The translations under genes and the position numbers were made by a program. DNA of 64,000 nucleotides from Clostridium sp. (lineage in GTDB: Bacteria; Bacillota; Clostridia; Clostridiales; Clostridiaceae), in NCBI GenBank assembly GCA_031292145.1, contig JARLHR010000028.1:1-64000 (forward strand), read 5' to 3'. Within the stretch, counting starts at the first letter, position 1. Each line of letters begins with the position of its first letter. Shown here in pieces: positions 5,395 to 28,497 of this stretch. Under the pieces are notes generated by a model, which was not told where the DNA came from, did no database searches, and saw only the letters and a program-made list of their open reading frames with translations.

Positions 5395-5832
5395 TTAATA
5401 TCCCTTTTTCGCTAAAGTTTCACTAACTTCCCACATCTCTTTAGCTAAATTATTACTTACCTCTTCACCTAAAATATTAGCATAACATTTATATAAGTTT
5501 TCAAAACAATCATCAATTTGTTCACATACATCTTTTCCTTTGTCTGTAAGATAGATATGAGCGGTTTTCCAATCGTACTCTTTTCTCAAAATTCCTTGTG
5601 ATACTAATTTATCAACAAATCTTGTAGAAGTAGATGCTGCAATATCTAGCTTTTGGCTAAGTTCTGATTGAGTAATTCCATTATATTGATTGACTATTAC
5701 CACTAAATATACATGCGATGATGCAATTTCTAAATTACTAAAGGCTTCATCAGCAACTTTTCTCATTATATTAGAAAGACGATTTGATGTGAAAAATAAA
5801 CACTTAGCTAAAACTGATTCATCATTTTTCAT
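5395..5832 (-). CDS. MarR-family transcriptional regulator
   Basis: This 145-residue winged-helix protein has the MarR core at about residues 30-110: ITQSELSQKLDIAASTSTRFVDKLVSQGILRK, followed by a wing with AHIYLTDKGKDV. It has flanking helices for dimerisation and a Cys near residue 11. MarR proteins usually repress neighbouring efflux or redox genes and respond to phenolics or oxidants. The likely target is the split-barrel gene downstream (4776) or its own promoter. The spacing to that gene (205 bases, containing a dyad) argues against simple translational coupling. A GGAGGG site lies before the start. Confidence 0.85.
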   Translation of the reverse strand: MKNDESVLAKCLFFTSNRLSNIMRKVADEAFSNLEIASSHVYLVVIVNQYNGITQSELSQKLDIAASTSTRFVDKLVSQGILRKEYDWKTAHIYLTDKGKDVCEQIDDCFENLYKCYANILGEEVSNNLAKEMWEVSETLAKKGY

Positions 5833-6059
5833 AATAACATCCCTCCCTTCATCACTTGCATATACAAATGATAACCGATTTTTATTATAAAGTCAAGTAG
5901 TGATTTATAATAATAGTTATAGGATTTTCTTAATAACCAATCCATCATTTACAAGAATATATATTAAATTTATTAATTATGTTTTCTATTCATTCATCAG
6001 ATCATAAAATTTAAAGTCGTATATTTAAATCTGCCTACAACCCAATATAATTTCGGAAC

Positions 6060-6230
6060 TTATCTTTTTACATATAAGCTACAATGGCATATTTCTTTTT
6101 CCCTCATGTCTTTACAAGGACATACAGTATCTTCATTTTTCTCAGGAAGACATGGACAATAGCCTTCATTAATGAAAATTCTATCTATTATTTTTGTTAC
6201 AATATCTTTATTGGGATTAAGTTTCAACAT
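6060..6230 (-). CDS. Small ferredoxin-thioredoxin reductase catalytic-subunit-like protein
   Basis: This 56-residue gene is supported by a TAGGAG site 7 bases before its ATG. The protein contains CPC (25-27), CPC (37-39) and CHC (48-50), in the order and with the local sequence (CPCKDMREKEICHCSLYV) of the ferredoxin-thioredoxin reductase catalytic chain, whose pattern is CPC-X16-CPC-X8-CHC. Here the first spacer is only 9 residues, so it is a minimal variant. It should bind a [4Fe-4S] cluster next to a redox disulfide and reduce thioredoxin-like partners with ferredoxin. The gene begins 18 bases after the stop of the metallo-beta-lactamase-fold gene, so the two are likely co-transcribed. The physiological partner is unknown. 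Confidence 0.82.
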   Translation of the reverse strand: MLKLNPNKDIVTKIIDRIFINEGYCPCLPEKNEDTVCPCKDMREKEICHCSLYVKR

Positions 6231-6248
6231 AATAACACTCCTAATATT

Positions 6249-7218
6249 TTATACGAATAAGAACATTGTAGTTAAATCTATTAGATCTTTACCCACATAA
6301 TTTGGATACTTTTCTAGAATATCTTTTTTATATTCTTGCGCTTTTTCCTTATTATCTTTATTTTCACTACTTATCTTCTTAATAATTTCATTTCCATCTT
6401 TAATGTACTGTATCATATCTGCAAAAACTTTATTTGATGTTGGAACGCCATGTCCACCTAATACTAATGAATAGTTATTTCCTTTTAATTCTTCTAATTT
6501 TTTAATCCAATTCGTTCTGTCAGTCTCATTTTGAGCTAGAAATATATGAGAATCATTATAAACTATGTCTTGAGCTAGTAAAACTTTGTCTTGTGGTATT
6601 TCTATCATAGCAACTTCATCTGCTTCTGTTCCAGTTACTTTTTTAACTATCATATTTAGTCCATCAATAGTTAGATTCCCTTCTTCTAGAATGTCAGTTG
6701 GGGCAGTTAACTTAGTTGGAACAAGTGGTCCTGCTTGATTAATTGCTTGTTTACTTTTAACTTTAGCTTCTCCTGTTTTTTCTATTTCATCTTTTACTTC
6801 CTTTAATGCATAAATTTTTGTATCTGAAAATAATTCGCTTCCAAACCAATGGTCAGGATGGCTATGAGATATAATTAAACGGTCAATTGGTTTCTTTAAA
6901 CTGTTTATATACTCTCTTGCTTCCTTAGCATATGGTAGTAAAAATTGAGCATCAATTACAATAAGTTTATTTCTCGTCTCAATAATTTGAGTGTTTACCA
7001 ATGCACCGTCTTCAGGAGATGCATAAGTATGTATTGTATAATCCTTAAATTTATTTATCACAACTGTTCCAGCCTGTAATTTTTTATTCTCTGTTTCAAA
7101 CTTGCTTGCTTCTTGTTTTACTTCAGTTTTTGAAGTATCATCCTTTTTATTACTACATGCTACCAAAATAGAACCCCCCCATAATAAAAACTACTAGTAT
7201 TGAAATCATCTTTTTCAT
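6249..7218 (-). pseudogene. MBL-fold metallo-hydrolase lipoprotein, frameshifted in a G-tract inside the signal peptide
   Basis: A good ribosome-binding site and ATG at 7218 begin a lipoprotein signal peptide (MKKMISILVVFIMGG). A run of seven G (7174-7180 on the complement) then shifts the frame to a quick stop. With six G the frame would continue into SILVACSN, a proper lipobox with Cys, and then ~300 residues of a metallo-beta-lactamase-fold hydrolase containing SHSHPDHW and GGHGVPTS. The body is intact from 7166 to 6249. The intended product would be a membrane-anchored zinc hydrolase. The frameshift may be a homopolymer sequencing error, a real null allele, or slipped-strand phase variation. 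The FTR-like gene lies immediately downstream. Confidence 0.75.
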
Positions 7219-7388
7219 ATTAATTACTCCTTTGTATTATAAATTTAGCGGTCAGTTTAAAACTTATTTCCAGTAATTGAAATGACCACTTGAGAAAAGA
7301 TATTGCTGGATTTTATTTCTAATGAGAACCTCCTATTCTTAAATTTTTTCGATATTGATTTTTTCTAGATCAATAAACTAATATTAAA

Positions 7389-8261
7389 TTAGTATTTTCC
7401 GTTTTCATTCTTCCACTCTGATTTTGGAATAATTGTTTCCACAACATCCCAATGCTCTGCTATTTTGCCGTTTTCAACTCTGAATAAATCATAGTAGGAG
7501 GTATGTTTTCCAGCAAAGCTTCCTTCGCCTACAACAAGAACCATGTTTCCTTCACCAAGTGTCATATGAATGGTATCATATTTCACGTTTATCCCACTCT
7601 TTGCCATTGACTCTAAAGCTTTTCCAAGACCTGATAATCCATCTGCAATTGAAGGATTGTGCTGAATATAATTATCACCGTCAAAATATTCTTTAAGCTT
7701 GTTTGGATTTTTACCAATAAGTACGTCCTGAACAAAGTTCTTAACAAGTTCCTTATTGGCTTCAGTTTTATCTAAATCCTTTAACTCTGTTGTACCATCA
7801 AACATTGTGTGTCCACTAGGGTTTGGACCAGCAATTTCTTGAAGGTTATCCCAATGTTCTACAATCTTTCCATCTTCGAATCTGTAGATATCAAAACCAG
7901 CTTTAGGACCAAAGATGTTATACTCAGTTTGAGCTACTACATAATTACCATCTTCAAAAGCTCTTACAGTATTTACTTTTACTGAACCCTTTGGAAGTGC
8001 TGCTAATAACTTTCTAAACCCAGCAAGTCCGTCTTCAGCAGTTAAATTATGCTGAATATATTTATTTGGATTTATATACTCTACAGGCTCAGAAGCGCCT
8101 AACTCAATACTTTTTAATAATTCTACGACTTTTTCTTTATTCGTAAGCTGATTAACAGCAGTTTCTTTCGTAGTGTCTTGTTTAACTTCCTTTTTGGAAC
8201 ATCCTACTGCTGTTAATCCAACTGCAAGTACAGCTGCTAATGCTATTAATTTTAAATTCAT
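7389..8261 (-). CDS. Lipoprotein with two SnoaL/NTF2-like domains
   Basis: The 290-residue product begins with a lipoprotein signal peptide ending in VGCSKK (lipobox Cys about residue 21). It contains two tandem NTF2-like (SnoaL) repeats at about 42-150 and 165-280. Each repeat has the pattern NKEKVVELL, then YIQHNxxxxDGLxG, then DIYRFEDGKIVEHWD or DLFRVENGKIAEHWD. The duplication is visible by eye and probably arose by internal gene doubling. SnoaL-like folds form cone-shaped cavities that bind or isomerise small molecules; an actual catalytic role cannot be assigned. It precedes the MBL-fold lipoprotein gene by 170 bases on the same strand, so a shared surface function is possible. Confidence 0.83.
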   Translation of the reverse strand: MNLKLIALAAVLAVGLTAVGCSKKEVKQDTTKETAVNQLTNKEKVVELLKSIELGASEPVEYINPNKYIQHNLTAEDGLAGFRKLLAALPKGSVKVNTVRAFEDGNYVVAQTEYNIFGPKAGFDIYRFEDGKIVEHWDNLQEIAGPNPSGHTMFDGTTELKDLDKTEANKELVKNFVQDVLIGKNPNKLKEYFDGDNYIQHNPSIADGLSGLGKALESMAKSGINVKYDTIHMTLGEGNMVLVVGEGSFAGKHTSYYDLFRVENGKIAEHWDVVETIIPKSEWKNENGKY

Positions 8262-8300
8262 GATTCATATCTCCTATAAATTAAATTGATTTCTGCCGGC

Positions 8301-11935: not shown

Positions 11936-14554
11936 TTACTTTTCTACTACTGCTACTTCTTTCTCAATTTCTGTTTTATCAAAAACAGAAATAAACATTT
12001 GTTTTATTTCGCTTATTAATGGATATCTTGGGTTAGCTCCTGTACATAAATCATCAAAAGATAATTCAGACATCTTATCTAAAGTAGCATAGAATTTCTT
12101 TTCTGGTACTCCTGCTTCCTTAATTGTCATTGGAAGATTTAACTTCAGCTTTAATTCATCTATAGCATTAATTAATGCTTCAACCTTTTCATCCTCTGTT
12201 TCTCCACCTAACTGTAAATAATCAGCCATTTTAGCATATCTAGACTTAGCATTTGGATATTTATATTGTGGGAAAGCAGTTTGTTTTCTTGGATCTTCTG
12301 CTGAATTAAATCTTATCACTTCATTAATTAGTAATGCATTTGCAGTTCCGTGCGGTACATGGTGTTCTGCTCCTAATTTATGTGCCATTGAGTGACATAC
12401 CCCTAAAAATGCATTAGCGAACGCCATACCTGCTATTGTTGATGCATGAGCCATTTTTTCCCTAGCTTTTATATTAGTAGTTCCTTCAGTGTATGCCAGT
12501 GGTAAATACTTAAAGATTAATCTTGCAGCTTCTAATGCCAAACCATTAGTATAGTCTGATGCAAGTACAGATACATAAGCCTCAATTGCATGAACTAAAG
12601 CATCTATACCTGATGATGCAGTTAATCCTCTTGGCATATTCATCATTAATTCAGCATCAATTATAGCCATACCAGGAGTTAGTTGATAATCTGCTAATGG
12701 ATATTTCACCCCAGTCTTTTCATCGGTGATAACTGCAAATGGAGTTACTTCTGAACCAGTACCTGCTGATGTAGGAACAGCAACAAAGGTAGCTTTTTTA
12801 CCAATCTTAGGCATATTATAGATTCTCTTTCTGATATCCATAAAGATCATTGCTAAATCTTCGAATGCAACATCTGGTTGTTCGTAAAGAACCCACATAA
12901 TTTTGGCAGCATCCATTGGTGAACCTCCACCAACCGCAATTATAGTGTCAGGTTCAAAATTAAGCATTTCCTTAGCACCTTTTCTAGCACTTTCAAGGGT
13001 TGGATCTGGTTGTACATCGTAGAATATTCTATAATCTACGCCAATTTGTTCTAGAACCTTTGTAACATTATCTAAAACTCCTAGATCATATAAAACCTTA
13101 TCAGTTACAATATAGGCTTTTTTTCGGTGCATATCTTTTAGTTCTTCAAGAGCCATTCCTAAACAACCATATTTAAAATAAATCTTTTCTGGAACCCTAA
13201 ACCAAAGCATATTCTCTCTCCTTCTTGCTACACTCTTAACATTTAATAAGTGTTTAACTCCAACATTTTCTGATACTGAGTTTCCACCCCAAGAACCGCA
13301 GCCTAATGTAAATGAAGGAGCTACTTTAAAGTTATAAGTATCACCTGCAGCACCATGTGAAGCTGGCATGTTAACAAATGTTCTTGATGTCTTCATTGCC
13401 GCACCAAAGCTTTCGATTCTATCTTTGCATAATAATTCATCAGTATATAAAACAGAAGTATGTCCCATTCCACCGTAAGCCAGAAGTTTACCTGCCTTAT
13501 CAAGGGCTTCATCAAAGGTTCTTACCTTGTACATAGCTAAAACTGGAGATAATTTTTCATGCGATAACGGCTCTTCTGGTCCGATTAATTCAACCTCTCC
13601 AATTAGAACCTTAATTGCTTCTGGAATTTCAATTCCTGCTAATTGAGCTATTTTATAAGCACTTTGTCCAACGATATCTGGGTTTACAGAACCATTAATC
13701 ATTATTGTTTTTCTAACTTTATCTACTTCATCACCTTTTAAGAAATATGCTCCTCTATCTATAAACTCATTTTTAACTTCATCATAAATCTTATCTATTG
13801 CAACAATAGCTTGTTCTGAAGCACAGATAACACCATTGTCAAAAGTTTTTGATAGAAGTATTGAGTTAACAGCCATTTTAATATGAGCAGTTTCATCAAT
13901 TATAACGGGTGTGTTACCAGCACCAACGCCAAGAGCTGGTTTACCTGATGAGTAAGCTGCCTTAACTAAGGCAGGACCACCTGTTGCTAAAATAATGTCA
14001 GCCTCTTTCATAACGATTTGTGAAAGTTCAATTGACGGCTCATCTATCCAGCCAATTATACCTTCTGGTGCACCAGCCTTAACAGCTGCATCAAGAACTA
14101 TTTTAGCAGCAGCTATTGTTGATTTTTTTGCTCTTGGATGTGGTGAGAAAATCACACCATTTCTAGTTTTTAATGCTATTAAAGATTTAAATATAGCTGT
14201 TGAAGTTGGATTTGTTGTTGGAACTATAGCTGCAACAACACCGATTGGTTCAGCTACTTTTGTTATACCAAAAGCATCATCTGTTTCTAAAATTCCACAA
14301 GTTTTTTCATCTTTATATTTATTATAAACATACTCAGAAGCTAGATGATTTTTAATAACCTTATCCTCAAATATCCCCATACGAGTTTCTTCAACTGCCA
14401 TTTTAGCAAGAGGTATTCTTTCATTAAGCGCTGCCATAGCTGCTTCCCTAAAAATTTTATCAACTTGTTCTTGCGAAAACTTTGAAAATATCTTTTGAGC
14501 TTCCCTTATTTGCTCAATTTTTTTCTTTAATTGATCTGAATTAACAACTTTCAT
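11936..14554 (-). CDS. adhE: Bifunctional acetaldehyde-CoA/alcohol dehydrogenase
   Basis: The 872-residue protein has an N-terminal aldehyde dehydrogenase domain (about 1-440), with the catalytic Cys in FDNGVICASEQ. Its C-terminal iron-dependent alcohol dehydrogenase domain (about 455-865) has metal ligands in MAHKLGAEHHVPHG and NAD-binding GGGSPMDAAK. It reduces acetyl-CoA (or butyryl-CoA) to the alcohol in the cytoplasm, reoxidising two NADH, and usually assembles into long spirosomes. Length and domain order are normal. Upstream are a TTGACA promoter whose spacer is a Rex-type operator and, further up, an MtlR-like promoter. A strong terminator follows. The gene is monocistronic by these signals. 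Confidence 0.97.
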   Translation of the reverse strand: MKVVNSDQLKKKIEQIREAQKIFSKFSQEQVDKIFREAAMAALNERIPLAKMAVEETRMGIFEDKVIKNHLASEYVYNKYKDEKTCGILETDDAFGITKVAEPIGVVAAIVPTTNPTSTAIFKSLIALKTRNGVIFSPHPRAKKSTIAAAKIVLDAAVKAGAPEGIIGWIDEPSIELSQIVMKEADIILATGGPALVKAAYSSGKPALGVGAGNTPVIIDETAHIKMAVNSILLSKTFDNGVICASEQAIVAIDKIYDEVKNEFIDRGAYFLKGDEVDKVRKTIMINGSVNPDIVGQSAYKIAQLAGIEIPEAIKVLIGEVELIGPEEPLSHEKLSPVLAMYKVRTFDEALDKAGKLLAYGGMGHTSVLYTDELLCKDRIESFGAAMKTSRTFVNMPASHGAAGDTYNFKVAPSFTLGCGSWGGNSVSENVGVKHLLNVKSVARRRENMLWFRVPEKIYFKYGCLGMALEELKDMHRKKAYIVTDKVLYDLGVLDNVTKVLEQIGVDYRIFYDVQPDPTLESARKGAKEMLNFEPDTIIAVGGGSPMDAAKIMWVLYEQPDVAFEDLAMIFMDIRKRIYNMPKIGKKATFVAVPTSAGTGSEVTPFAVITDEKTGVKYPLADYQLTPGMAIIDAELMMNMPRGLTASSGIDALVHAIEAYVSVLASDYTNGLALEAARLIFKYLPLAYTEGTTNIKAREKMAHASTIAGMAFANAFLGVCHSMAHKLGAEHHVPHGTANALLINEVIRFNSAEDPRKQTAFPQYKYPNAKSRYAKMADYLQLGGETEDEKVEALINAIDELKLKLNLPMTIKEAGVPEKKFYATLDKMSELSFDDLCTGANPRYPLISEIKQMFISVFDKTEIEKEVAVVEK

Positions 14555-14718
14555 AAAATTACCTCACTTTCATCTTTTAAAAATATATAGTTGCATTTAT
14601 TTAAATAGCCAAAACTAGTAGTATCTAGTATTTAGCTTGTTTAAAACATCTTGAAAACATTTCATAATCATGATTATATTAAAAATTAATACTTGTACTA
14701 AATTTACTACACTATTTA

Positions 14719-14747
14719 ATTTATTGTTATTTGTTTAACAATGTCAA
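14719..14747 (-). promoter_or_regulatory. adhE promoter with Rex operator in the spacer
   Basis: On the minus strand TTGACA (14742-14747) and ATAAAT (14719-14724) are 17 bp apart. The spacer is filled by TTGTTATTTGTTTAACAA (14724-14741 on the plus strand), which differs by one base from the Rex consensus TTGTTAA-N4-TTAACAA. Rex would block RNA polymerase at low NADH/NAD+ and release when NADH builds up. Confidence 0.75.
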
Positions 14748-14910
14748 GTACACTTAATCCATTCTGATAAATAGAAATAAAGATAACTTCTACATTTTTA
14801 ACTAATAACATCACTAGTAAACTTATAAAAACTATATTTTTATAAAATAATTGATATCTACACAAAACTGTAAATGTTATTTTTTTAACATTTGATTTTA
14901 TAGATATAGA

Positions 14911-14965: not shown

Positions 14966-15002
14966 CCTAAAATGGTTATGAAATTATGGACTCTATATTA
15001 TC

Positions 15003-15084
15003 ATAATAGTTTAAATTATCTGTTAATTCAATTTATATAAGTTCAAAATAGTGCTACGTTTTTTCTGACAACTTTAAAATAAAA
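15003..15084 (-). promoter_or_regulatory. MtlR-like promoter element, copy C (upstream of adhE)
   Basis: The minus-strand -35 is TTGAAT (15026-15031) and the -10 TATTAT (15003-15008), with a 17-bp spacer. Directly upstream is the same ~60-bp block found before mtlA and mtlR: AATTCAATTT, then AAGTTCAA, then TACGTTTT, then GACAA. The block overlaps the glmS terminator. It points toward adhE, about 440 bases away, with no gene between. Confidence 0.7.
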
Positions 15085-15128
15085 AAAATCATGAATGGTT
15101 TTGGATTTCTCCTACTTCCATTCATGAC
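15079..15128 (-). terminator. Terminator of glmS
   Basis: TCATGAATGG (15089-15098) pairs with CCATTCATGA (15118-15127), followed on the minus strand by eight T. Confidence 0.85.
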
Positions 15129-15193: not shown

Positions 15194-17023
15194 TTATTCA
15201 ACAGTTACAGACTTAGCAAGGTTCCTTGGCTTATCTACATCACAACCTCTTTGAACTGCAATATAATATGCTAGTAATTGTAATGGAATTACTGAAATAA
15301 CAGGTAATAGTATATCTTTGATTTTTGGAATATACATTGCTGACTCAACAGTCTTTTCAATTGCTGTATTTCCTTCAACTGCAAATCCAAGAACTTTTGC
15401 ACCTCTAGTTGTTACTTCTTTTATATTACTAACCATTTTTTCATATAAATCACTTTGAGTAGCTAGTGCAATAACAACTGTACCTTCTTCGATTAATGCT
15501 ATTGTTCCGTGTTTTAATTCTCCACCTGCATAAGCTTCTGAGTGAATATATGAGATTTCTTTTACTTTTAAAGAACCTTCCATAGCTACAGCATAATCTA
15601 ATCCTCTTCCTAAGAAGAACATATCCTTATGAGAGTAAGTTTTAGTTGCAAACTTTTGGATAACTTCTTTATGCTTTAACATTTCTTCTGCTAATTCTGG
15701 TAATTTAAGCATATCAGTTTTGATTGCTTCGATTTCTTCTGCTGCAACTGTATTTAAGTTTTCAGCAAAGAATAATCCTATCATATACATTGTTAATAAT
15801 TGAGTTGTATAAGCTTTAGTTGATGCAACTGCAACTTCTGGTCCAGCCCAAGTATAGATAACATCATCAGCTTCTCTTGAAACTGAGCTACCAACAACAT
15901 TTGTAATTGCAATAACTCTAGCCCCTTGTGCTTTAGCCTCTCTTAGTGCTGCTAAAGTATCTGCTGTTTCTCCAGATTGGCTCATAACTATCATTAAAGT
16001 TTTATCATTTATTATAGGATTTCTATATCTAAATTCAGATGCAATATCTACTTCTACAGGTATTCTTGCAAGTTGTTCTATTGCATACTTTCCTACAACC
16101 CCTGCATGATATGCAGTACCACATGCTACTATATAAATTCTATTAATATTTTCAATTTGTTCTTTTGTAATATTTATTTTGTCTAAAGTAATTGGGCTAC
16201 CTGGAACAACTCTAGCTGATAAAGTATCTTTAAATGCCTTAGGTTGTTCATGAATTTCCTTAATCATAAAGTGTTCATATCCACCTTTTTCTGCTGCATC
16301 AGCATTCCAAGTTACATGGTGGACATCTTTATTAACTTTTTCTTTTTCAGCATCGTATACTTCGATACCATCTTTTGAAATTACTAAGAATTCTTTATCA
16401 TTAAGATAGTATACATCTCTTGTGTAATTTAATATTGCTGGAACGTCTGAAGCAATAAAAAATTCTCCATCTCCTAAACCTGCAATTAATGGACTATCTT
16501 TTCTTACAGCGATGATTTTATCTGGCTCATCAGTAGAAACAACTCCTAATGCATAGCTTCCTTCAAGTTTTGTAGTAGCCATCATTACTGCATCTAATAA
16601 ATCACCTTTGTAGAAATAATCAATAAGATTTGGAATTACTTCTGTATCTGTTTCTGATACAAATGTATATCCTTTTGTCATCAACCATTCTCTTAAGTGT
16701 AAATAATTCTCAATAATACCATTGTGAACTATACTTATTGTATTTTTGTTATTGTTATGAGGATGTGAATTTACATCTGATGGCTCACCGTGAGTTGCCC
16801 ATCTAGTATGCCCTATTCCAATTTCCCCACTTAATGGAGCCTTTTCTAATTTTTCTTCTAAATTAGCAAGTCTTCCTTTACACTTACTTACATTCATTTT
16901 TCCAGCTTCATCTAACACTGCAATACCAGCTGAGTCATAACCTCTATACTCTAGTTTGCTTAATCCGTTGATTAAAACTGAAGACGCTTGTTTTTTTCCG
17001 ATATAACCTACTATACCACACAT
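15194..17023 (-). CDS. glmS: Glutamine-fructose-6-phosphate aminotransferase
   Basis: This 609-residue enzyme makes glucosamine-6-phosphate from fructose-6-phosphate and glutamine, the first committed step to UDP-GlcNAc and peptidoglycan. The N-terminal glutaminase starts with the nucleophile Cys2 (CGIVGYIG), with GHTRWATHG following. Two SIS isomerase domains follow (IVACGTAYHAG, MSQSGETADT, ending [13 protein letters not shown]). Length is standard. A glmS ribozyme fills the 5' leader, so product glucosamine-6-phosphate should trigger self-cleavage of the mRNA. No insertion is seen at its own downstream attachment region, in contrast to the glmS fragment at 10.7 kb. Confidence 0.98.
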   Translation of the reverse strand: MCGIVGYIGKKQASSVLINGLSKLEYRGYDSAGIAVLDEAGKMNVSKCKGRLANLEEKLEKAPLSGEIGIGHTRWATHGEPSDVNSHPHNNNKNTISIVHNGIIENYLHLREWLMTKGYTFVSETDTEVIPNLIDYFYKGDLLDAVMMATTKLEGSYALGVVSTDEPDKIIAVRKDSPLIAGLGDGEFFIASDVPAILNYTRDVYYLNDKEFLVISKDGIEVYDAEKEKVNKDVHHVTWNADAAEKGGYEHFMIKEIHEQPKAFKDTLSARVVPGSPITLDKINITKEQIENINRIYIVACGTAYHAGVVGKYAIEQLARIPVEVDIASEFRYRNPIINDKTLMIVMSQSGETADTLAALREAKAQGARVIAITNVVGSSVSREADDVIYTWAGPEVAVASTKAYTTQLLTMYMIGLFFAENLNTVAAEEIEAIKTDMLKLPELAEEMLKHKEVIQKFATKTYSHKDMFFLGRGLDYAVAMEGSLKVKEISYIHSEAYAGGELKHGTIALIEEGTVVIALATQSDLYEKMVSNIKEVTTRGAKVLGFAVEGNTAIEKTVESAMYIPKIKDILLPVISVIPLQLLAYYIAVQRGCDVDKPRNLAKSVTVE

Positions 17024-17061: not shown

Positions 17062-17225
17062 TTTAGGTACCTCCTAGAGTTTGTCCCTAAAATTACTTCC
17101 TGGTTTTCTCTAGGTTTTCGGTAGTACCATACCGCAGGGCATCCGCCGAATCTTCGATACTCCCTGTCCTCGTCAACTTAAGCTGGCATGTCTTACAATC
17201 AGTTTAAGTTCTGGCGCTTCACTAT
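17062..17225 (-). ncRNA. glmS ribozyme riboswitch
   Basis: Reading the minus strand, the leader contains the conserved AGCGCCAGAACT (cleavage expected between 17218 and 17217), then GACGAGG, GGGAGTATCGAA, TTCGGCGGATGCCC and later GGGACAAACTCTAGGAGG. These are the signature core elements of the glucosamine-6-phosphate-activated self-cleaving RNA. It ends about 40 bases before the glmS ATG. Confidence 0.93.
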
Positions 17226-17345
17226 ATATTTTAAAAGCCTACAATACATTATATTATGGAATAGGAATTTTGACAAACAATTTTTAAATTAATCTAAAAT
17301 TAAATATCTAAATTATTTATTATAAATTCTTCATTCTATTAGGGT

Positions 17346-17379: not shown

Positions 17380-18792
17380 TTATTTTAATCCATTAATAAA
17401 GTCATCATATTTTGAACGATCTAAGAAATTTTTAACAGTAATTATAGTCACATCACTTGATGCCGATTTTCTTGCTCTTTCAACTAAACTTTCTTGTGTA
17501 AACACTACATTTGCTGACTTTGGAACATCATCAACTGGTGAGTGTTGTACATCAATATTAGTGATTCCTGCATCTTTTAACGCTTTCTTAAGAATAGATT
17601 CTCCCATCGCTGATGAACCCATACCAGCGTCACAAGCAAATACTATTAAGCTTATATCTGATTTTGAAATTTCAGCTTTTGGTGCAGCTTGTCCTTTACT
17701 TTCAGCCTTCATTTCTTTAACTTTTGATTGTGCTTCTTCTAAATCTTCTTCAGATTCTGGATTTCTCTTAATTATTACTGCTGCTACTAGGAAAGAAGCA
17801 ATTGCTGATGCTGCTACCCCTGCAAGCACCGGTAAAAGACCACCTTTTGGTGCCATTGCAATTAATGCAAATATACTTCCTGGAGAAGGTGTTGCAACTA
17901 ATCCAGCATGAGTTACTACAAATGTAAAGTCCCCTGCTAATCCCCCTGCAATAACTGCTAATATTAATGCTGGTTTCATTAATACATATGGGAAGTATAT
18001 TTCATGTATACCACCTAAGAAATGGATGATTATTGCTCCAGGAGCTGATTGTTTTGCTGTACCTTTGCTGTATAACATGAATGCTAATAATATTCCAAGT
18101 CCTGGACCTGGGTTTGGTTCAAGTAAGAAGAAAATTGATTTACCTGCTTCTTGTACTTGTTGTATTGCAAGTGGTGAGAATACACCATGATTCATTGCAT
18201 TGTTTAAGAATAAAATTTTAGCTGGTTCTACTATAAAAGCTATTAAAGGTAATACTCCCATGTTAGTAATTGCCTGTGCTGCACTTCCAAGTCCAGTTGA
18301 TATACCTGAAACCACTGGTTCAATAACTGAATAAGCTAATATTGATACTCCACCACCTAATATACCTGCTGAAAAGTTGTTAACTAACATTTCAAAACCT
18401 GTTGGAACTTTTCCATCTATTAACTTGTCAAACTTTTTGATTACATATCCGCCAAGTGGCCCCATAATCATTGCACCAAGGAACATTGGAATTGAAGCGC
18501 CTACTATAACACCTGCTGTTGCTATTGCACCAACTACTCCCCCTCTCTTACCGTATACAATATTTCCTCCTCGATAACCGATAAGAAGTGGTAATAAATA
18601 AGTTATCATTGGACCAACTAACTTTGCGAAATATTCATTTGGAATCCATCCTGTAGGAATAAATAATGCCGTAATTAATCCCCAAGCTATAAATGCTCCA
18701 ATATTAGGGATTACCATACTACTTAAAAAATTACCAAACTTTTGAATCTTTTCTTTGCTAGTTGATTGATTTCTTGTCGCTATGTTTTGCAT
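17380..18792 (-). CDS. mtlA: Mannitol PTS permease, EIICB
   Basis: The 470-residue protein has an N-terminal membrane EIIC domain (about 20-345; [42 protein letters not shown]). A charged linker leads to a C-terminal EIIB domain with the phospho-cysteine in [13 protein letters not shown]. It imports mannitol as mannitol-1-phosphate. The EIIA domain is encoded separately by mtlF, as is usual in clostridia. It has its own promoter of the same type as mtlR, and is separated from mtlD by a deleted sugar-binding gene and a terminator. AGGAGG precedes the ATG. Confidence 0.95.
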
Positions 18793-18836: not shown

Positions 18837-18918
18837 ATGATAAGGTATACAATGCACGAATTCAATTTATACAAGTTCAATCTTAGGATACGTTTTCAAG
18901 GACAATTTTGAAGTAAAA
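18837..18918 (-). promoter_or_regulatory. MtlR-like promoter element, copy B (mtlA)
   Basis: -35 TTGAAT (18860-18865) and -10 TATCAT (18837-18842) with a 17-bp spacer, preceded by the conserved AATTCAATTT, AAGTTCAA, GATACGTTTTC and GACAA block. The positions of all parts match copies A and C. Confidence 0.8.
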
Positions 18919-19033: not shown

Positions 19034-19613
19034 TTATTGAAACATTGATCCAATATATGCTTCATACGGAATAAGAACCGCTACTCCTGTTTCATCTAAT
19101 TTATATGGTATAGATATACCCTCAACAGGATTTTTATCATAAACCAAGTTCATCCCTACTATATAAATTGCATTAGCCATATCAGCAGTATCTTGTGAAG
19201 CAGTACCTAACATAAAGCCTTTTGAAACTAGTTCTTTAGCTTCAGATACTCCATCTAGTCCAACAACTACTATTGTTTTTTCCCTATCTCCTAAATTATA
19301 GCCATATTTTTGAAGCGCTTGAACAGCACCAATTGCCATGGAATCATCATTCGAAATTATCGCCTCTATTTTGTTACCATCTCTAAAAAACAATGAGCCA
19401 ACGGTGTTTTTAGCTGATTCTTCATCCCACTCCAAAATAGGTGATGCAAGTTCTTCTGTTTTTATACCAGCTTCTTGAATAGTTGAAATTGAATATGCTG
19501 ATCTATCAATAGATTTTTTATTGAGCTTTTCACCAACTAGCAATACGTCATCTTGGTTTTTATCAATCAATCGTAAGTAAAGCTATATTTAAGATTCTAT
19601 TGAATATTTTCAT
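19034..19613 (-). pseudogene. Galactose/glucose-type sugar-binding protein with large internal deletion
   Basis: An ATG at 19613 with AGGAGGA upstream begins a signal peptide (MKIFNRILNIALLTI), then stops. From 19570 another frame gives ~178 residues of the C-terminal half of a periplasmic-type galactose/methylgalactoside-binding protein (AIISNDDSMAIGAVQALQKYG, VVVGLDGVSEAKELV, LGTASQDTADMANA). About half the gene is missing, and the junction falls at a short ATTGATTGAT repeat, suggesting deletion between direct repeats. The surviving part cannot be exported or bind sugar properly. It lies between mtlD and mtlA, where a full gene may once have served sugar sensing or uptake. Confidence 0.8.
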
Positions 19614-19897: not shown

Positions 19898-21061
19898 TTA
19901 TTTTTTATATTCAACTTTTAACTTTTCATATTTCTTTATAATCTCTGCTACTATAGCATCATCTTCTGATATCCCAGTTATAGTGCTTACAGTTTTTGCA
20001 ATGCCATTGTTTTTAACATTATTTTGGATTCCCTGTGCTTTTTCGTCATCTTCAGAGTCAAATAAGAATCCTGCTGCGATACCTGTTAAAATATTATCAG
20101 CTTCTATATTTAATTCATAACAAAGCTTTAAAGGTGTAACTAATCTATCATTACCTGATAATTTTCTTACTGGATCACGACCTACACGACTTAATTCATC
20201 CTGAAGGTACGAATTCTCAAACCTGCCTATTATCTTTTTAGAATAATTATTTAGTTCCTCAATATTTATACCATGTTTAATGCTCAAAGCTTTCATTCCT
20301 TCATTATGGAAGCCTATAGCTGTATTTCTTATAAATTCATCTTTTGTTATTGCTTCATGGATAAATTTATAACCTTTAAGATATCCGATATACGCAATTG
20401 TTGCATGAGCACCATTTAATAAAAATAATTTTCTTTCAAGGTATGGTCCTAGCTTGTCTACATATTCTGCACCCTTAATTTCTGAGTTAATCTTTATCTT
20501 ATCTTTTTCTATATCCCATTCATAAAAATCTTCTACTGCAACATCAATTGGTAACTCTTTTTCAATATTTACATTTGGTACAATCCTATCAACTGCGCTA
20601 TTTGGAAAACCAACTTTTTCTTGTAGATATTTAGTTAATTCTGCACTAGCTCCATCAAAAATAGCCTTTTTAAGAATATCAGTAGCAAATAATGCATTTT
20701 CACAGGCAATTATATCAAGCTCTTTTGTATTAACTTGCACTCTCTTTTCTAAAAGATCTCTTAAAACGTTGCCAGTGCTAGTCAAGTTGTTAGCACCTAT
20801 AGATGTTGTTATTAGATCTGCTTCCGATACTGCTTTCTCAAGTGCTTCAATATCTTTCAAATGTATTGCACTAACATTTCTTACTTCTTCTTTGTTTTCT
20901 GAAGTACTTAAAGTTATAACTGTATAATTCTTATACTTATTAATAGCATCTACTAGAAAATCTGAAATATCAACAAAAGTGACATCATATCCTGATTTAT
21001 ATTGTAGATATCCAATAAACCCCCTACCTATATTACCTGCACCAAAATGAACTGCTTTCAT
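19898..21061 (-). CDS. mtlD: Mannitol-1-phosphate 5-dehydrogenase
   Basis: The 387-residue protein starts MKAVHFGAGNIGRGFIG, the family's NAD-binding motif. It continues with VDRIVPN, the catalytic-region FLLNGAHATIAYIGYLKG, and GRFENSYLQDELSRVGRDPVRKL. It oxidises imported mannitol-1-phosphate to fructose-6-phosphate with NADH production. I set the start at 21061, one base after the mtlF stop, because homology begins there and GAGGGGG lies just upstream. A longer frame adds 27 unrelated residues overlapping mtlF. It is the last gene of the operon and is followed by a terminator. Confidence 0.95.
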   Translation of the reverse strand: MKAVHFGAGNIGRGFIGYLQYKSGYDVTFVDISDFLVDAINKYKNYTVITLSTSENKEEVRNVSAIHLKDIEALEKAVSEADLITTSIGANNLTSTGNVLRDLLEKRVQVNTKELDIIACENALFATDILKKAIFDGASAELTKYLQEKVGFPNSAVDRIVPNVNIEKELPIDVAVEDFYEWDIEKDKIKINSEIKGAEYVDKLGPYLERKLFLLNGAHATIAYIGYLKGYKFIHEAITKDEFIRNTAIGFHNEGMKALSIKHGINIEELNNYSKKIIGRFENSYLQDELSRVGRDPVRKLSGNDRLVTPLKLCYELNIEADNILTGIAAGFLFDSEDDEKAQGIQNNVKNNGIAKTVSTITGISEDDAIVAEIIKKYEKLKVEYKK

Positions 21062-21062
21062 A

Positions 21063-21497
21063 TTACATTTCCCCCTCTTCAATAATTGCCATAATTTCTT
21101 CCTCAGATGTTGCATTTCTAAGTCTTTCAACATTTTCTTCATATTGAACAGTTAATGCAATTTTAGATAATATCTCCATGTGGTCATCTCCAAGTCCTGC
21201 TATTCCAATAACTATATAAGCGGTATTACCTTCACCAAAATCTACACCACTCGGATATTGAAATATAACTATTCCAGATTGCTTTATCTGTTTTTTGTAG
21301 TCATTCATTCCATGAGGAATAGCCACCCCATTTCCCATGAACGTACTTACTTCATTTTCTCTTTCTTTCATACCCTCTATATAATTCTCATTAACATAGC
21401 CATTTTTCACTAATAATTTTCCTGCATTTTCAATAGCCTCAAATTTAGATATTGAAGGTGCATTAAGCACTATATTTTGTTTTGTTAAGATTTCCAT
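21063..21497 (-). CDS. mtlF: Mannitol PTS EIIA component
   Basis: This 144-residue EIIA of the mannitol/fructose type has the phosphorylated histidine in NGVAIPHGMND, preceded by ERENEVSTFMG. It receives phosphate from HPr and passes it to the EIIB domain of MtlA; it can also phosphorylate MtlR. It begins immediately at the mtlR stop (no gap) and is followed after one base by mtlD, so the three are translationally coupled. Length is normal for the family. Confidence 0.95.
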   Translation of the reverse strand: MEILTKQNIVLNAPSISKFEAIENAGKLLVKNGYVNENYIEGMKERENEVSTFMGNGVAIPHGMNDYKKQIKQSGIVIFQYPSGVDFGEGNTAYIVIGIAGLGDDHMEILSKIALTVQYEENVERLRNATSEEEIMAIIEEGEM

Positions 21498-23543
21498 TTA
21501 AACGTCCTCCTCAATATTTACAATATTTATCAAATAATTTCTAATATCTTTTATATTTCCTAATTTTAAAATATCGATAAACTCTTTACTTTCTATCAAA
21601 GCTACACTAACTTTACCTAGCAACTGCAGAATGTAATTACTCTCTGAATTTCTTGCAAGCATTACTAAAAATGTATCTACATCTTCAGTTGAAAATCCTA
21701 CACTTGCCATATTAAGTGGTTTTTGTAATCTATATACTCCTACTAAAGGAGTTGTTAATTCATCACTTCTCGTGTGTATTAATGCCACATTTGTACCTGG
21801 CACAACTACGTTTCCTTTTTCTTCTCTTTGAAATATAAGATCTCTTACTGCTTTTTTATCATTGGCAAATCCTTTTTCTGAAATATCATCACAAATATAA
21901 TTAATTAGCTCTACAAAAGTATTAACATTTGCCCTTTCTAACTGAAAATTCTTAATGATAGAATCTGCTATTTCATACTCAGCACTTGAAATTTTATTTT
22001 TATTATCTACAATTGGCATATCCATAAATTTCTTTTGATTACTAACCTTTAAATTAAAAATAAAATTGCTAACTTTTTCTATATTTTCTTGTGTCATAAA
22101 TGGGGAAACTTCAATAATACTATTGCTTTCCTTTGATGCTATAGGAACAGTAGATAATATTAAGTCATATTTGTTTTCAGAAATTGAGTCATTGGTATCA
22201 TGTAGAGATCTAATACTTATACTCTCTATATCAGGAAAAAGAGATTTTATCTTATTACTTAAAATTTTTGATGTACCTATTCCCCCTGAACATATAATAA
22301 GTACTTTCATTTTTCTTAAAATTGATTGTTGCCTTTGAATTGCAACATCAATATGCATAGTTATATACCCTACTTCTTCTCGTGGGATTTTAAGGTTATA
22401 TCTTGAAAAAATTAATTTACACCTATTATTAATTATTTTAAATAATTCTGAATAGTGTTCTTCTATCTCATTTATTAACGGATTTATAACTCTTAATCCC
22501 AAGTTCAACATATAGAAACTTTGTTTGAAGTGTCTAGCCAAATCTCTTATTAATTGATCATCAATTGATAATTCTAAGTTGATTTTTTTTGAAACTTCAG
22601 TTACAAGTTCCATAACTACATCTTCATAGCTGATACCTGATTCCCCACCCTTTGTATATAAATATTTATAGTCACTTAAATACAAGTATAGGTAAACCAA
22701 TTCATCTTCTGGTAATACAATATTATTTTTTTTCAAGCTTTCATCTAATGATTTTATTCTTTGGTAATCTTCTAAAACTGTAATATCGTCTTTTACTTTT
22801 TGAGGCAATATAATATTTTCAGAATTTTCCTTCTTTTTTATCGATAATAATACCTGAATAAATAAACTTAGGTACTTCACATCATTTACTTTTAAATACT
22901 TAAAATCAACTTCATTTAATACTTCTTTTGCTATTTCAATAATTCTTTTACCAAAAGTAATTTCAAAGAACGTTTTCACTGCAGCATCAAATTTTCTGTT
23001 ATAAAAATAAGCTAATAGATCATCAAACGGTTTAAATTCAAATAAAAGGTCAACAAAAGCATTTCTTTTATTCCATTCAGAACCTTCGATAGATATACCA
23101 TAACTTCTTTTTCTAATTAAACATAAATTTTTAGTAATAAGAACTTTTTCAATACTATCTAAATCTAAACTAATACTACCCATTACTACATTAAATTTAT
23201 GACTTAAATAAGAAGCTTTCATTGGTTCTTTACTTACCAACAGTTCGCAAGCAATAATTATTTGCCTTTGCTCTTTTGTAAACAACCATTGTATTGGAAC
23301 TGAATTTAATGATGTTTTTATTTCTTGAATATTTTCTTTGTTTCCTGAAATACTTAAATTCATTTCTTCATCATTAAATATTTTCATACTATATTTTTTT
23401 AAATCTGTATTAAGAGAAGAAATTTCTCTTAGTATTGTTCTAGCACTTACGTTTAATTGTTTTTGAAGATTTTTTATGTTTATAGAATCCTCATCCAATA
23501 CCTTATTTAGCACAAACTGCTGTCTAGGAGTTAAGTCTTTCAT
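21498..23543 (-). CDS. mtlR: Mannitol operon transcriptional activator with PRD, EIIB and EIIA domains
   Basis: The 681-residue regulator has an N-terminal helix-turn-helix (LTPRQQFVLNKVLDEDS, NVSARTILREIS). Two PTS-regulation domains follow (about 180-400; HIDVAIQRQ near the end), then an EIIB-like domain with the Cys in LIICSGGIGTSKI (about 410), and a C-terminal EIIA-like domain (about 540-680) with VALIHTRSDELTTP. Activity is expected to depend on PTS phosphorylation, rising when mannitol is transported. It is the first gene of mtlR-mtlF-mtlD and probably acts on the three conserved promoters described here. Confidence 0.93.
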   Translation of the reverse strand: MKDLTPRQQFVLNKVLDEDSINIKNLQKQLNVSARTILREISSLNTDLKKYSMKIFNDEEMNLSISGNKENIQEIKTSLNSVPIQWLFTKEQRQIIIACELLVSKEPMKASYLSHKFNVVMGSISLDLDSIEKVLITKNLCLIRKRSYGISIEGSEWNKRNAFVDLLFEFKPFDDLLAYFYNRKFDAAVKTFFEITFGKRIIEIAKEVLNEVDFKYLKVNDVKYLSLFIQVLLSIKKKENSENIILPQKVKDDITVLEDYQRIKSLDESLKKNNIVLPEDELVYLYLYLSDYKYLYTKGGESGISYEDVVMELVTEVSKKINLELSIDDQLIRDLARHFKQSFYMLNLGLRVINPLINEIEEHYSELFKIINNRCKLIFSRYNLKIPREEVGYITMHIDVAIQRQQSILRKMKVLIICSGGIGTSKILSNKIKSLFPDIESISIRSLHDTNDSISENKYDLILSTVPIASKESNSIIEVSPFMTQENIEKVSNFIFNLKVSNQKKFMDMPIVDNKNKISSAEYEIADSIIKNFQLERANVNTFVELINYICDDISEKGFANDKKAVRDLIFQREEKGNVVVPGTNVALIHTRSDELTTPLVGVYRLQKPLNMASVGFSTEDVDTFLVMLARNSESNYILQLLGKVSVALIESKEFIDILKLGNIKDIRNYLINIVNIEEDV

Positions 23544-23592: not shown

Positions 23593-23673
23593 ATGATAGT
23601 TCATATTATGCATCAATTCAATTTGAACAAGTTCAAAACAGAGATACGTTTTCACTGTCAAATTTAAAATAAG
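23593..23673 (-). promoter_or_regulatory. MtlR-like promoter element, copy A (mtlR)
   Basis: -35 TTGAAT (23616-23621) and -10 TATCAT (23593-23598), 17-bp spacer. The upstream block contains the perfect palindrome TTGAACAAGTTCAA (23623-23636 region), then GATACGTTTTC and GTCAAATTT. This is the clearest operator of the three. Confidence 0.8.
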
Positions 23674-23812: not shown

Positions 23813-24592
23813 TTATGAAAATGCAATCCAAGGTTTTTGAATTTCTTGCTTTAATGTATTATAGCTATCAATTGCACTTCTTAATTGAAGATTTAAATCT
23901 TCACTGCTCACAAATAACGCATCATAATCTGATTTAGTCATTAATCCTAAATCATATTTAAGCTTTGCATCACTAAGTTGTTTGTTATTTAATTCTATAT
24001 TTTGCTTCAATAAATTAATGTTATCTTGTGTAGTAAGAAGATTTGTATAAAATGTTCTTAACTGCTCTTTAAATTTTTTCTTAGTTTCATTTAAATTAGT
24101 TTCATTTTGATAAACGCCTAATTTAGAATTTAAATAAGTTAATCTTGCTGATAAAATTCCTGCATAGCTATTTAAAGTATTATTATAGGTATCAAGGTCA
24201 TTCTGATATTTTTCATATGCAGCAAGATTAGTAGTGTCTGTTGGCGCTGAAGGTTTAGTAGCAGATTCTGCTGCTGTTTCTGCCTTGTTCACATTATCTG
24301 CAGATATTTCATTATCCTTATCAGTCATATAATCCTTATTAAGTTTAATTAGTTGTGCATTATATTTTAAATAACTATCTATAGCATTATCTAAATACTC
24401 ATCTACTGAACCATCTATTTTAAATATCTCATATTTAATATCTTGTTCTAAGCTATACTGTGTTACATCTTTACCAGTTAATGCTTTAAAACTATATTCT
24501 GCATCATTTAATGCATTCTGACTTGATTTTTGAGCATTTTGTAGAGTTTGAATTTGAAGTTCATTTCTTAAATTAAATTTTATCTTAGGCAC
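23813..24592 (-). pseudogene. TolC-like coiled-coil protein, 5'-truncated by a short inverted-repeat element
   Basis: About 259 residues form a long coiled-coil with two similar halves (AQKSSQNALNDAEYSFKAL, then NKQLSDAKLKYDLGLMTKSDYD), the pattern of clostridial TolC-family exported proteins that accompany MacAB-type pumps. The N-terminal half with its signal peptide is missing. The apparent GTG start lies inside the end of the inverted-repeat element at 24587-24647, so that element interrupts the gene. A Pro/Thr-rich insertion (PSAPTDTTN) lies in the middle. The fragment is unlikely to be exported. A MarR gene lies upstream on the other strand. Confidence 0.65.
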
Positions 24593-28369: not shown

Positions 28370-28497
28370 TCTTCTCATTTTTCAAGATATCATCTTGCAG
28401 GATTTAGCACCAACGAAAAAATTCATATAAAAACTTTTTCAGGTTGCCGGGTTTCAAAGGGCCAGTCCCTCCGCCACTCTTAATAAGATTAACTTAT
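28370..28497 (-). ncRNA. SAM-I (S-box) riboswitch
   Basis: On the minus strand the S-box core is clear: AAGAG, GGCGGAGGGACTGGCCC, GAAACCCGGCAACC, then GGTGCTAAATCCTGC and GAGAAGAATTAAG. A terminator hairpin follows at 28305-28340. S-adenosylmethionine binding should favour the terminator and shut off the two trans-sulfuration genes. Confidence 0.95.

Follow-up and report, generated by a model that had tools for sequence, protein, structure and literature searches.

A mannitol-type promoter upstream of adhE predicts a further MtlR regulon gene in Clostridium

Our analysis of a 64,000-nucleotide stretch of Clostridium sp. DNA (the window) identifies, upstream of adhE, a third copy of the promoter element that precedes mtlA and mtlR. 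Comparison with related genomes makes it likely that this copy, at 15003-15078 on the minus strand, functions as a promoter responding to mannitol and makes adhE a member of the MtlR regulon, where it would additionally be subject to redox control by Rex. The MtlR regulon is a known regulon type, and what is new here is a further predicted gene for it, together with an AdhE lineage that is tied to mtl genes in two arrangements. Among the literature matches listed, there was no report of adhE under MtlR and there were no expression data on mannitol induction or MtlR dependence of adhE.

Results

Organization of the mtl-glmS-adhE locus

The source genome (G000) comprises 6,342,069 bases in 282 contigs and is 95.85% complete, with the window located on contig C116. 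The genes of interest lie on the minus strand in the order mtlR, mtlF, mtlD, an MglB-like fragment, mtlA, glmS and adhE. The regulator gene mtlR (21498-23543) encodes HTH_11, Mga HTH, PRD, EIIB-like and EIIA-like domains identified with Pfam. No NCBIfam model scored above its cut-off for this protein, so its name is based on domains and neighbourhood, and a PDB sequence search with MtlR gave no match. Pfam also identified mtlF, encoding a PTS EIIA (21063-21497), mtlD, encoding mannitol-1-phosphate dehydrogenase (19898-21067), and glmS (15194-17023), the last of which is preceded by a glmS ribozyme leader found with Rfam (17063-17229). The mannitol PTS IICB gene mtlA (17380-18792) exceeds the cut-offs of both NF011663 and TIGR00851, while adhE (11936-14554) encodes an 872-aa bifunctional acetaldehyde-CoA/alcohol dehydrogenase supported by Pfam and by NF010378 (1391 bits against a cut-off of 951).

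Several other features of the region were recorded. The 178-aa frame at 19034-19570, between mtlD and mtlA, matches only the C-terminal part of the galactose-binding protein MglB (positions 166-314 of the 329 in profile NF011924) and has the appearance of a gene remnant; contig C276 carries a longer paralogue that is 49% identical. A 259-aa frame at 23813-24592 is related to outer-membrane-efflux-like proteins of 435-440 aa beside the mtl cluster in two other genomes (G027 and G099), and is possibly shortened in the window. A SAM riboswitch at 28372-28489 precedes two genes whose frames read as trans-sulfuration-type enzymes. Across the family, glmS commonly adjoins mtl genes.

Three copies of a composite promoter element

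The copies before adhE (C, 15003-15078), mtlA (A, 18837-18912) and mtlR (R, 23593-23668) all lie on the minus strand and align over 76 bp without gaps and in register. Each consists of a 47-bp operator, a -35 box TTGAAT, 17 bp and a -10 box TAT(T/C)AT. In copy C the operator occupies 15032-15078, the -35 box 15026-15031 and the -10 box, TATTAT, 15003-15008, from which transcription of adhE is expected to start near 14996. The initial annotation had proposed three promoters in register at these positions, which the alignment bears out, and it had placed a block of about 60 bp ahead of the promoter boxes; block and promoter are both present, and their sizes are 47 bp and 29 bp. It had also named adhE as the next gene downstream. 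Indeed, copy C sits between glmS and adhE and points to adhE, which begins 449 bp past the -10 box.

Similarity among the copies is substantial, with 59 of 76 positions identical between C and R, 51 between C and A, and 55 between A and R. When the whole genome was scanned with a 46-bp pattern allowing up to three mismatches, only these three copies were recovered, each with no mismatch. Chance resemblance has to be considered given that G+C content is low and promoter-like pairs are numerous (13 between 14500 and 15200, against 7.0 in shuffled sequence), and the -35/-10 pair of copy C, scoring 9 of 12 in the promoter scan, is unremarkable by itself. It is the operator that stands out. The next best place in the window matches copy C at 41 of 76 positions, against 51 and 59 for the mtl copies, the reversed-pattern control gave no match over the genome, a second species carries the element as well, and a profile from which copy C was held out detects it at E=1.6e-9. 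With the held-out search, the reversed control and the next best place all against it, we consider chance resemblance ruled out for all practical purposes.

Extending the comparison, an alignment of 18 elements from 8 genomes shows a single gap-free architecture in which the operator abuts the -35 box. Sixteen of these promoters were used here to define a clostridial mtlA/mtlR promoter element, and copy C has each of its parts, namely the operator, a -35 box TTGAA(A/T), the 17-bp spacer and the -10 box, in a gap-free arrangement. The architecture resembles that of Bacillus subtilis, in which MtlR, likewise a PRD/EIIB/EIIA regulator, activates mtlA and mtlR from an operator that is common to both genes and lies just upstream of the sigma-A -35 box (PMC3217849, PMC10992428). 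In B. licheniformis and B. subtilis, MtlR boxes follow the pattern TTGTCA...TGCCAA (PMC10992428). In all three copies in the window, a TTGTCA sequence, exact or with one base changed, is located 40 bp upstream of the -35 box, compared with 38 bp in B. subtilis as counted from primer sequences (PMC3217849). Unlike the Bacillus operators, the clostridial operator abuts the -35 box and lacks the TGCCAA half at mtlA, mtlR and adhE, and for this reason we do not class it as a Bacillus-type MtlR box. The third copy, at adhE, is a further difference; B. licheniformis has nine other potential MtlR boxes, and adhE is not mentioned among them in the available text of that report (PMC10992428).

Co-occurrence of the element with MtlR

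To search related genomes, we used a profile (R1) trained only on the 16 mtlA and mtlR elements, with both known adhE elements held out. Under stricter filters, R1 returned 24 matches at E<1e-6 in 11 of the 68 genus genomes, of which 11 precede mtlA, 11 precede mtlR and two precede adhE. Sixteen of the 22 mtl matches are the training sequences and the other six, from G098, G099 and G104, are new. The two adhE matches are copy C (40.7 bits, at the E value given above) and an element in a second species, G032 (32.8 bits, E=4.5e-7). Both score below the mtl copies of the genus, which reach 60.3-73.9 bits. Of five weak matches (E 0.003-0.007), three fall within open frames, another lies between convergent frames and the fifth, in G057, precedes a diverged mtlA; all but the last look like chance matches.

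The distribution of the element follows that of the regulator. An MtlR protein search (E up to 1e-100) found the protein in 14 of the 68 genus genomes, and MtlR of 61-100% identity occurs in the same 11 genomes as the strong elements, while the three genomes whose MtlR is only 45-46% identical have no R1 match. The genome of copy C carries its own cognate MtlR candidate, the product of 21498-23543. Across 206 family genomes, 29 contained R1 matches at E up to 0.001, numbering 44 altogether, and 18 of the 20 matches outside the genus precede mtlA; the other two are a match at a contig end (G223:C70) and a partial match inside an open frame (G208). An initial search of 98 relatives had given matches in 11 genomes. 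The matches in G002, G031 and G033, each with three mismatches, were rejected as chance, with no mtl gene or adhE within their 1.5-kb flanks.

This pattern is most simply read as binding of C, A and R alike by the clade's MtlR. We also weighed whether the operator, though real, is bound by another or a global regulator such as CcpA, in which case the three promoters would share catabolite control and not MtlR activation. The middle of the operator reads TGAAAACG in 10 of the 16 mtl elements, which resembles half of a cre site (cre consensus as given in PMC3217849). However, the second cre half is missing, TGAAAACG is absent from both adhE copies, and strong elements are found only where MtlR is at least 61% identical and only before mtlA, mtlR and adhE, all of which makes this alternative very improbable. 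The lack of TGAAAACG in both adhE copies does suggest that adhE might differ from the mtl genes in catabolite control, and MtlR remains our preferred activator.

A Rex-like box in the adhE leader

Transcription from the distal promoter would give adhE a leader of about 440 nt. Scored against the Rex consensus TTGTTAANNNNTTAACAA, this leader contains a box, TTGTTAAACAAATAACAA, at 14724-14741 (170 bp before adhE) that has one mismatch; every other site in the window has two or more. The box, which was absent from the initial annotation, is conserved at 17 of 18 positions in G032, with the same number of mismatches. A weaker second Rex-like box at 14874-14891 has three mismatches, and G032 also has one with three. 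At the sequence level, the near-consensus box before adhE and a Rex-type gene in the genome (PF06971, 83.7 bits against a cut-off of 27) are what would be expected of a Rex regulon member, and a second, redox control on adhE is therefore predicted. A closely similar arrangement is known from Thermoanaerobacterium saccharolyticum, whose adhE has a predicted Rex box, TTGTTAAATGAATAACAA, of nearly the same sequence at -150 (PMC5886521). No mannitol-type promoter is described for that gene in the available text, whereas Rex would share control of the window's adhE with a second input (PMC5886521).

The promoter scan also showed that the Rex box sits within a possible proximal promoter, TTGACA-18-TAAATT (14718-14747, minus strand). 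Its TTGACA is not kept in G032, unlike the Rex box. Being nearer, this promoter may dominate adhE expression. Other forms of control in the leader were considered. Sigma-54 control was rejected, as none of the 35 window matches with up to two mismatches (22.7 expected) lies between 14235 and 15325. No RNA element was found in the leader with Rfam (8000-30000, gathering threshold), and no reading frame there is gene-like.

Conservation of the element before adhE in a second species

In G032, which encodes an AdhE 94% identical to that of the window, the element is found about 0.42 kb upstream of the gene. The two adhE elements are identical at 67 of 76 positions, including 28 of 29 in the -35 to -10 part. 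Between these genomes, the mtlA elements agree at 70 of 76 positions and the mtlR elements at 64 of 76, so the adhE element has been kept about as well as its mtl counterparts. In the leader alignment, high identity is also seen in the region immediately before the element (26/31) and the last 95 columns (81/95), while the four remaining segments fall to 42-53%. For comparison, 247 of 339 fourfold sites in adhE are identical (73%).

These data bear on the possibility that copy C is a relic, left by rearrangement of an mtl promoter and no longer of consequence, with the Rex-controlled proximal promoter as the sole driver of adhE. Such a reading would account for the lower profile scores of the adhE copies and for the possible promoter closer to adhE, whose Rex box, 170 bp from the gene, is conserved, and in G000 only one gene, glmS, separates copy C from mtlA. 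Against it, the element is retained at 67 of 76 positions between two species amid surroundings as low as 42-53%, its -35 to -10 part is nearly invariant, and G032 keeps it away from the mtl cluster, with the element and adhE on contig C64 and the mtl cluster on C119. Even if the ends of these contigs were joined, some 16 kb would separate the element from glmS. We therefore regard the relic as unlikely and favor a functional MtlR-responsive promoter.

The conserved region immediately before copy C is a hairpin followed by a T run (15090-15126, minus strand), which the terminator scan, with its loop 3-8 rule, did not report. It is probably the glmS terminator. The same hairpin and T run precede adhE in G032, where glmS is elsewhere and has a different 3' flank. 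The element-adhE arrangements of G000 and G032 may represent one event.

An AdhE lineage linked to mannitol genes

Searching the 68 genus genomes with the window AdhE (E up to 1e-200) returned four full-length relatives at 90-94% identity, and the next full-length AdhE in the genus is 76% identical. Besides G032, these relatives come from G027, G099 and G104. Their adhE genes (5671-8292 of locus L027, 6235-8856 of L150 and 8189-10810 of L151) are flanked by mtlA and the mtlR element, share one orientation with both, and encode proteins 90-92% identical to that of the window. A remnant of adhE lies between mtlA and mtlR in G038 (L028, 6702-7472; 256 aa, 81% identical), and together with the in-cluster genes it suggests a gain followed by a later loss. 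The five full-length proteins form one clade with a support of 100/100, to which the second AdhE of neither G027 nor G032 belongs, in a tree of 34 of 41 rows (the seven skipped include L038 and the second AdhE of G038). With the element before adhE in G000 and G032 and adhE inside the cluster in G027, G099 and G104, the lineage is linked to mtl in all five genomes that have it, through two different arrangements. The in-cluster arrangement of the three genomes may also be one event; in the G027-type species, a hairpin without a T run is found downstream of mtlA. Only one full-length AdhE was found in G000, at the assembly completeness stated above, and it may therefore also serve as a general AdhE for other substrates.

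The arrangement with the element appears rare, as none of 80 named adhE loci has it before adhE. The nearest named AdhE is 77% identical, in a search that may omit very near genomes. Two of the 80 loci have mtl genes in the fetched flanks. One convincing element match was found among the named loci, before the mtlA of L038, and L093 gave two weak matches (E 0.23 and 0.83). At three loci from more distant genomes, adhE adjoins mannitol-type PTS genes with no element before adhE (L201, 7647-10509; L038, 4049-8343; L042, 1275-10607), in arrangements that differ from those of the genus. We give little weight to the adhE-mtl adjacency in G199, L038 and L042 as support for linkage: in G199 a terminator-like hairpin lies between adhE and the mtlA element, L038 has a gap of 550 bp containing a Rex-like box of its own, and its adhE is not preceded by an element, and the PTS cluster of L042 is of a different kind, with no mtlD seen in it.

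Discussion

Our comparative results support the proposal of the initial annotation that adhE belongs to the MtlR regulon. The check for conservation before adhE in relatives was positive, with G032 retaining the element and three species carrying adhE inside the mtl cluster, and the co-occurrence of element and MtlR in 11 of 68 genomes points in the same direction. From these patterns we infer the following course of events. Import of mannitol through the MtlA PTS would cause MtlR to shed its inactivating phosphate, after which it would bind, at mtlA, mtlR and adhE, to the operator that immediately precedes the -35 box. Bound MtlR would then activate the sigma-A polymerase as a class II activator, as has been argued for B. 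subtilis MtlR (PMC3217849), and AdhE would rise together with the mannitol enzymes. In doing so, AdhE would reoxidise the extra NADH from mannitol-1-phosphate dehydrogenase, yielding ethanol or butanol.

The physiology of mannitol fermentation is consistent with this predicted role. Mannitol gives three NADH per two pyruvate, and Clostridium pasteurianum grown on mannitol is reported to form 6.0 g/l butanol and little acid, a butanol-dominated profile that has been explained by NADH balance (PMC5027557). The additional NADH invoked by the initial annotation thus has a precedent, and AdhE is a fitting sink for it. With the Rex box in its leader, adhE would read both the substrate, as feed-forward, and the NADH/NAD+ ratio, as feedback. 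Dedicated activation of alcohol dehydrogenase genes is also known from another solventogenic species, Clostridium beijerinckii, in which AdhR and sigma-54 act at adhA1 and adhA2; that system uses a different promoter class and different genes from adhE here (PMC7017808).

On balance, we lean toward the broader view that large-genome Clostridium species have a separate AdhE lineage specialized for mannitol growth. Mannitol control of this lineage would have arisen in two ways, through its own MtlR promoter in G000 and G032 and through a place in the mtl cluster in G027, G099 and G104, with a remnant in G038. Combined with the Rex box, such control would gate adhE on both substrate and NADH, so that the sink is built before NADH rises.

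If MtlR feeds adhE directly, part of the butanol shift on mannitol would be hard-wired by a substrate sensor, and not set only by NADH/NAD+. The adhE promoter would then be a natural mannitol-inducible alcohol promoter, useful for fermenting mannitol-rich feedstocks, and the three promoters of this locus would form a system in which to compare operator strength, class II activation and dual control by MtlR and Rex.
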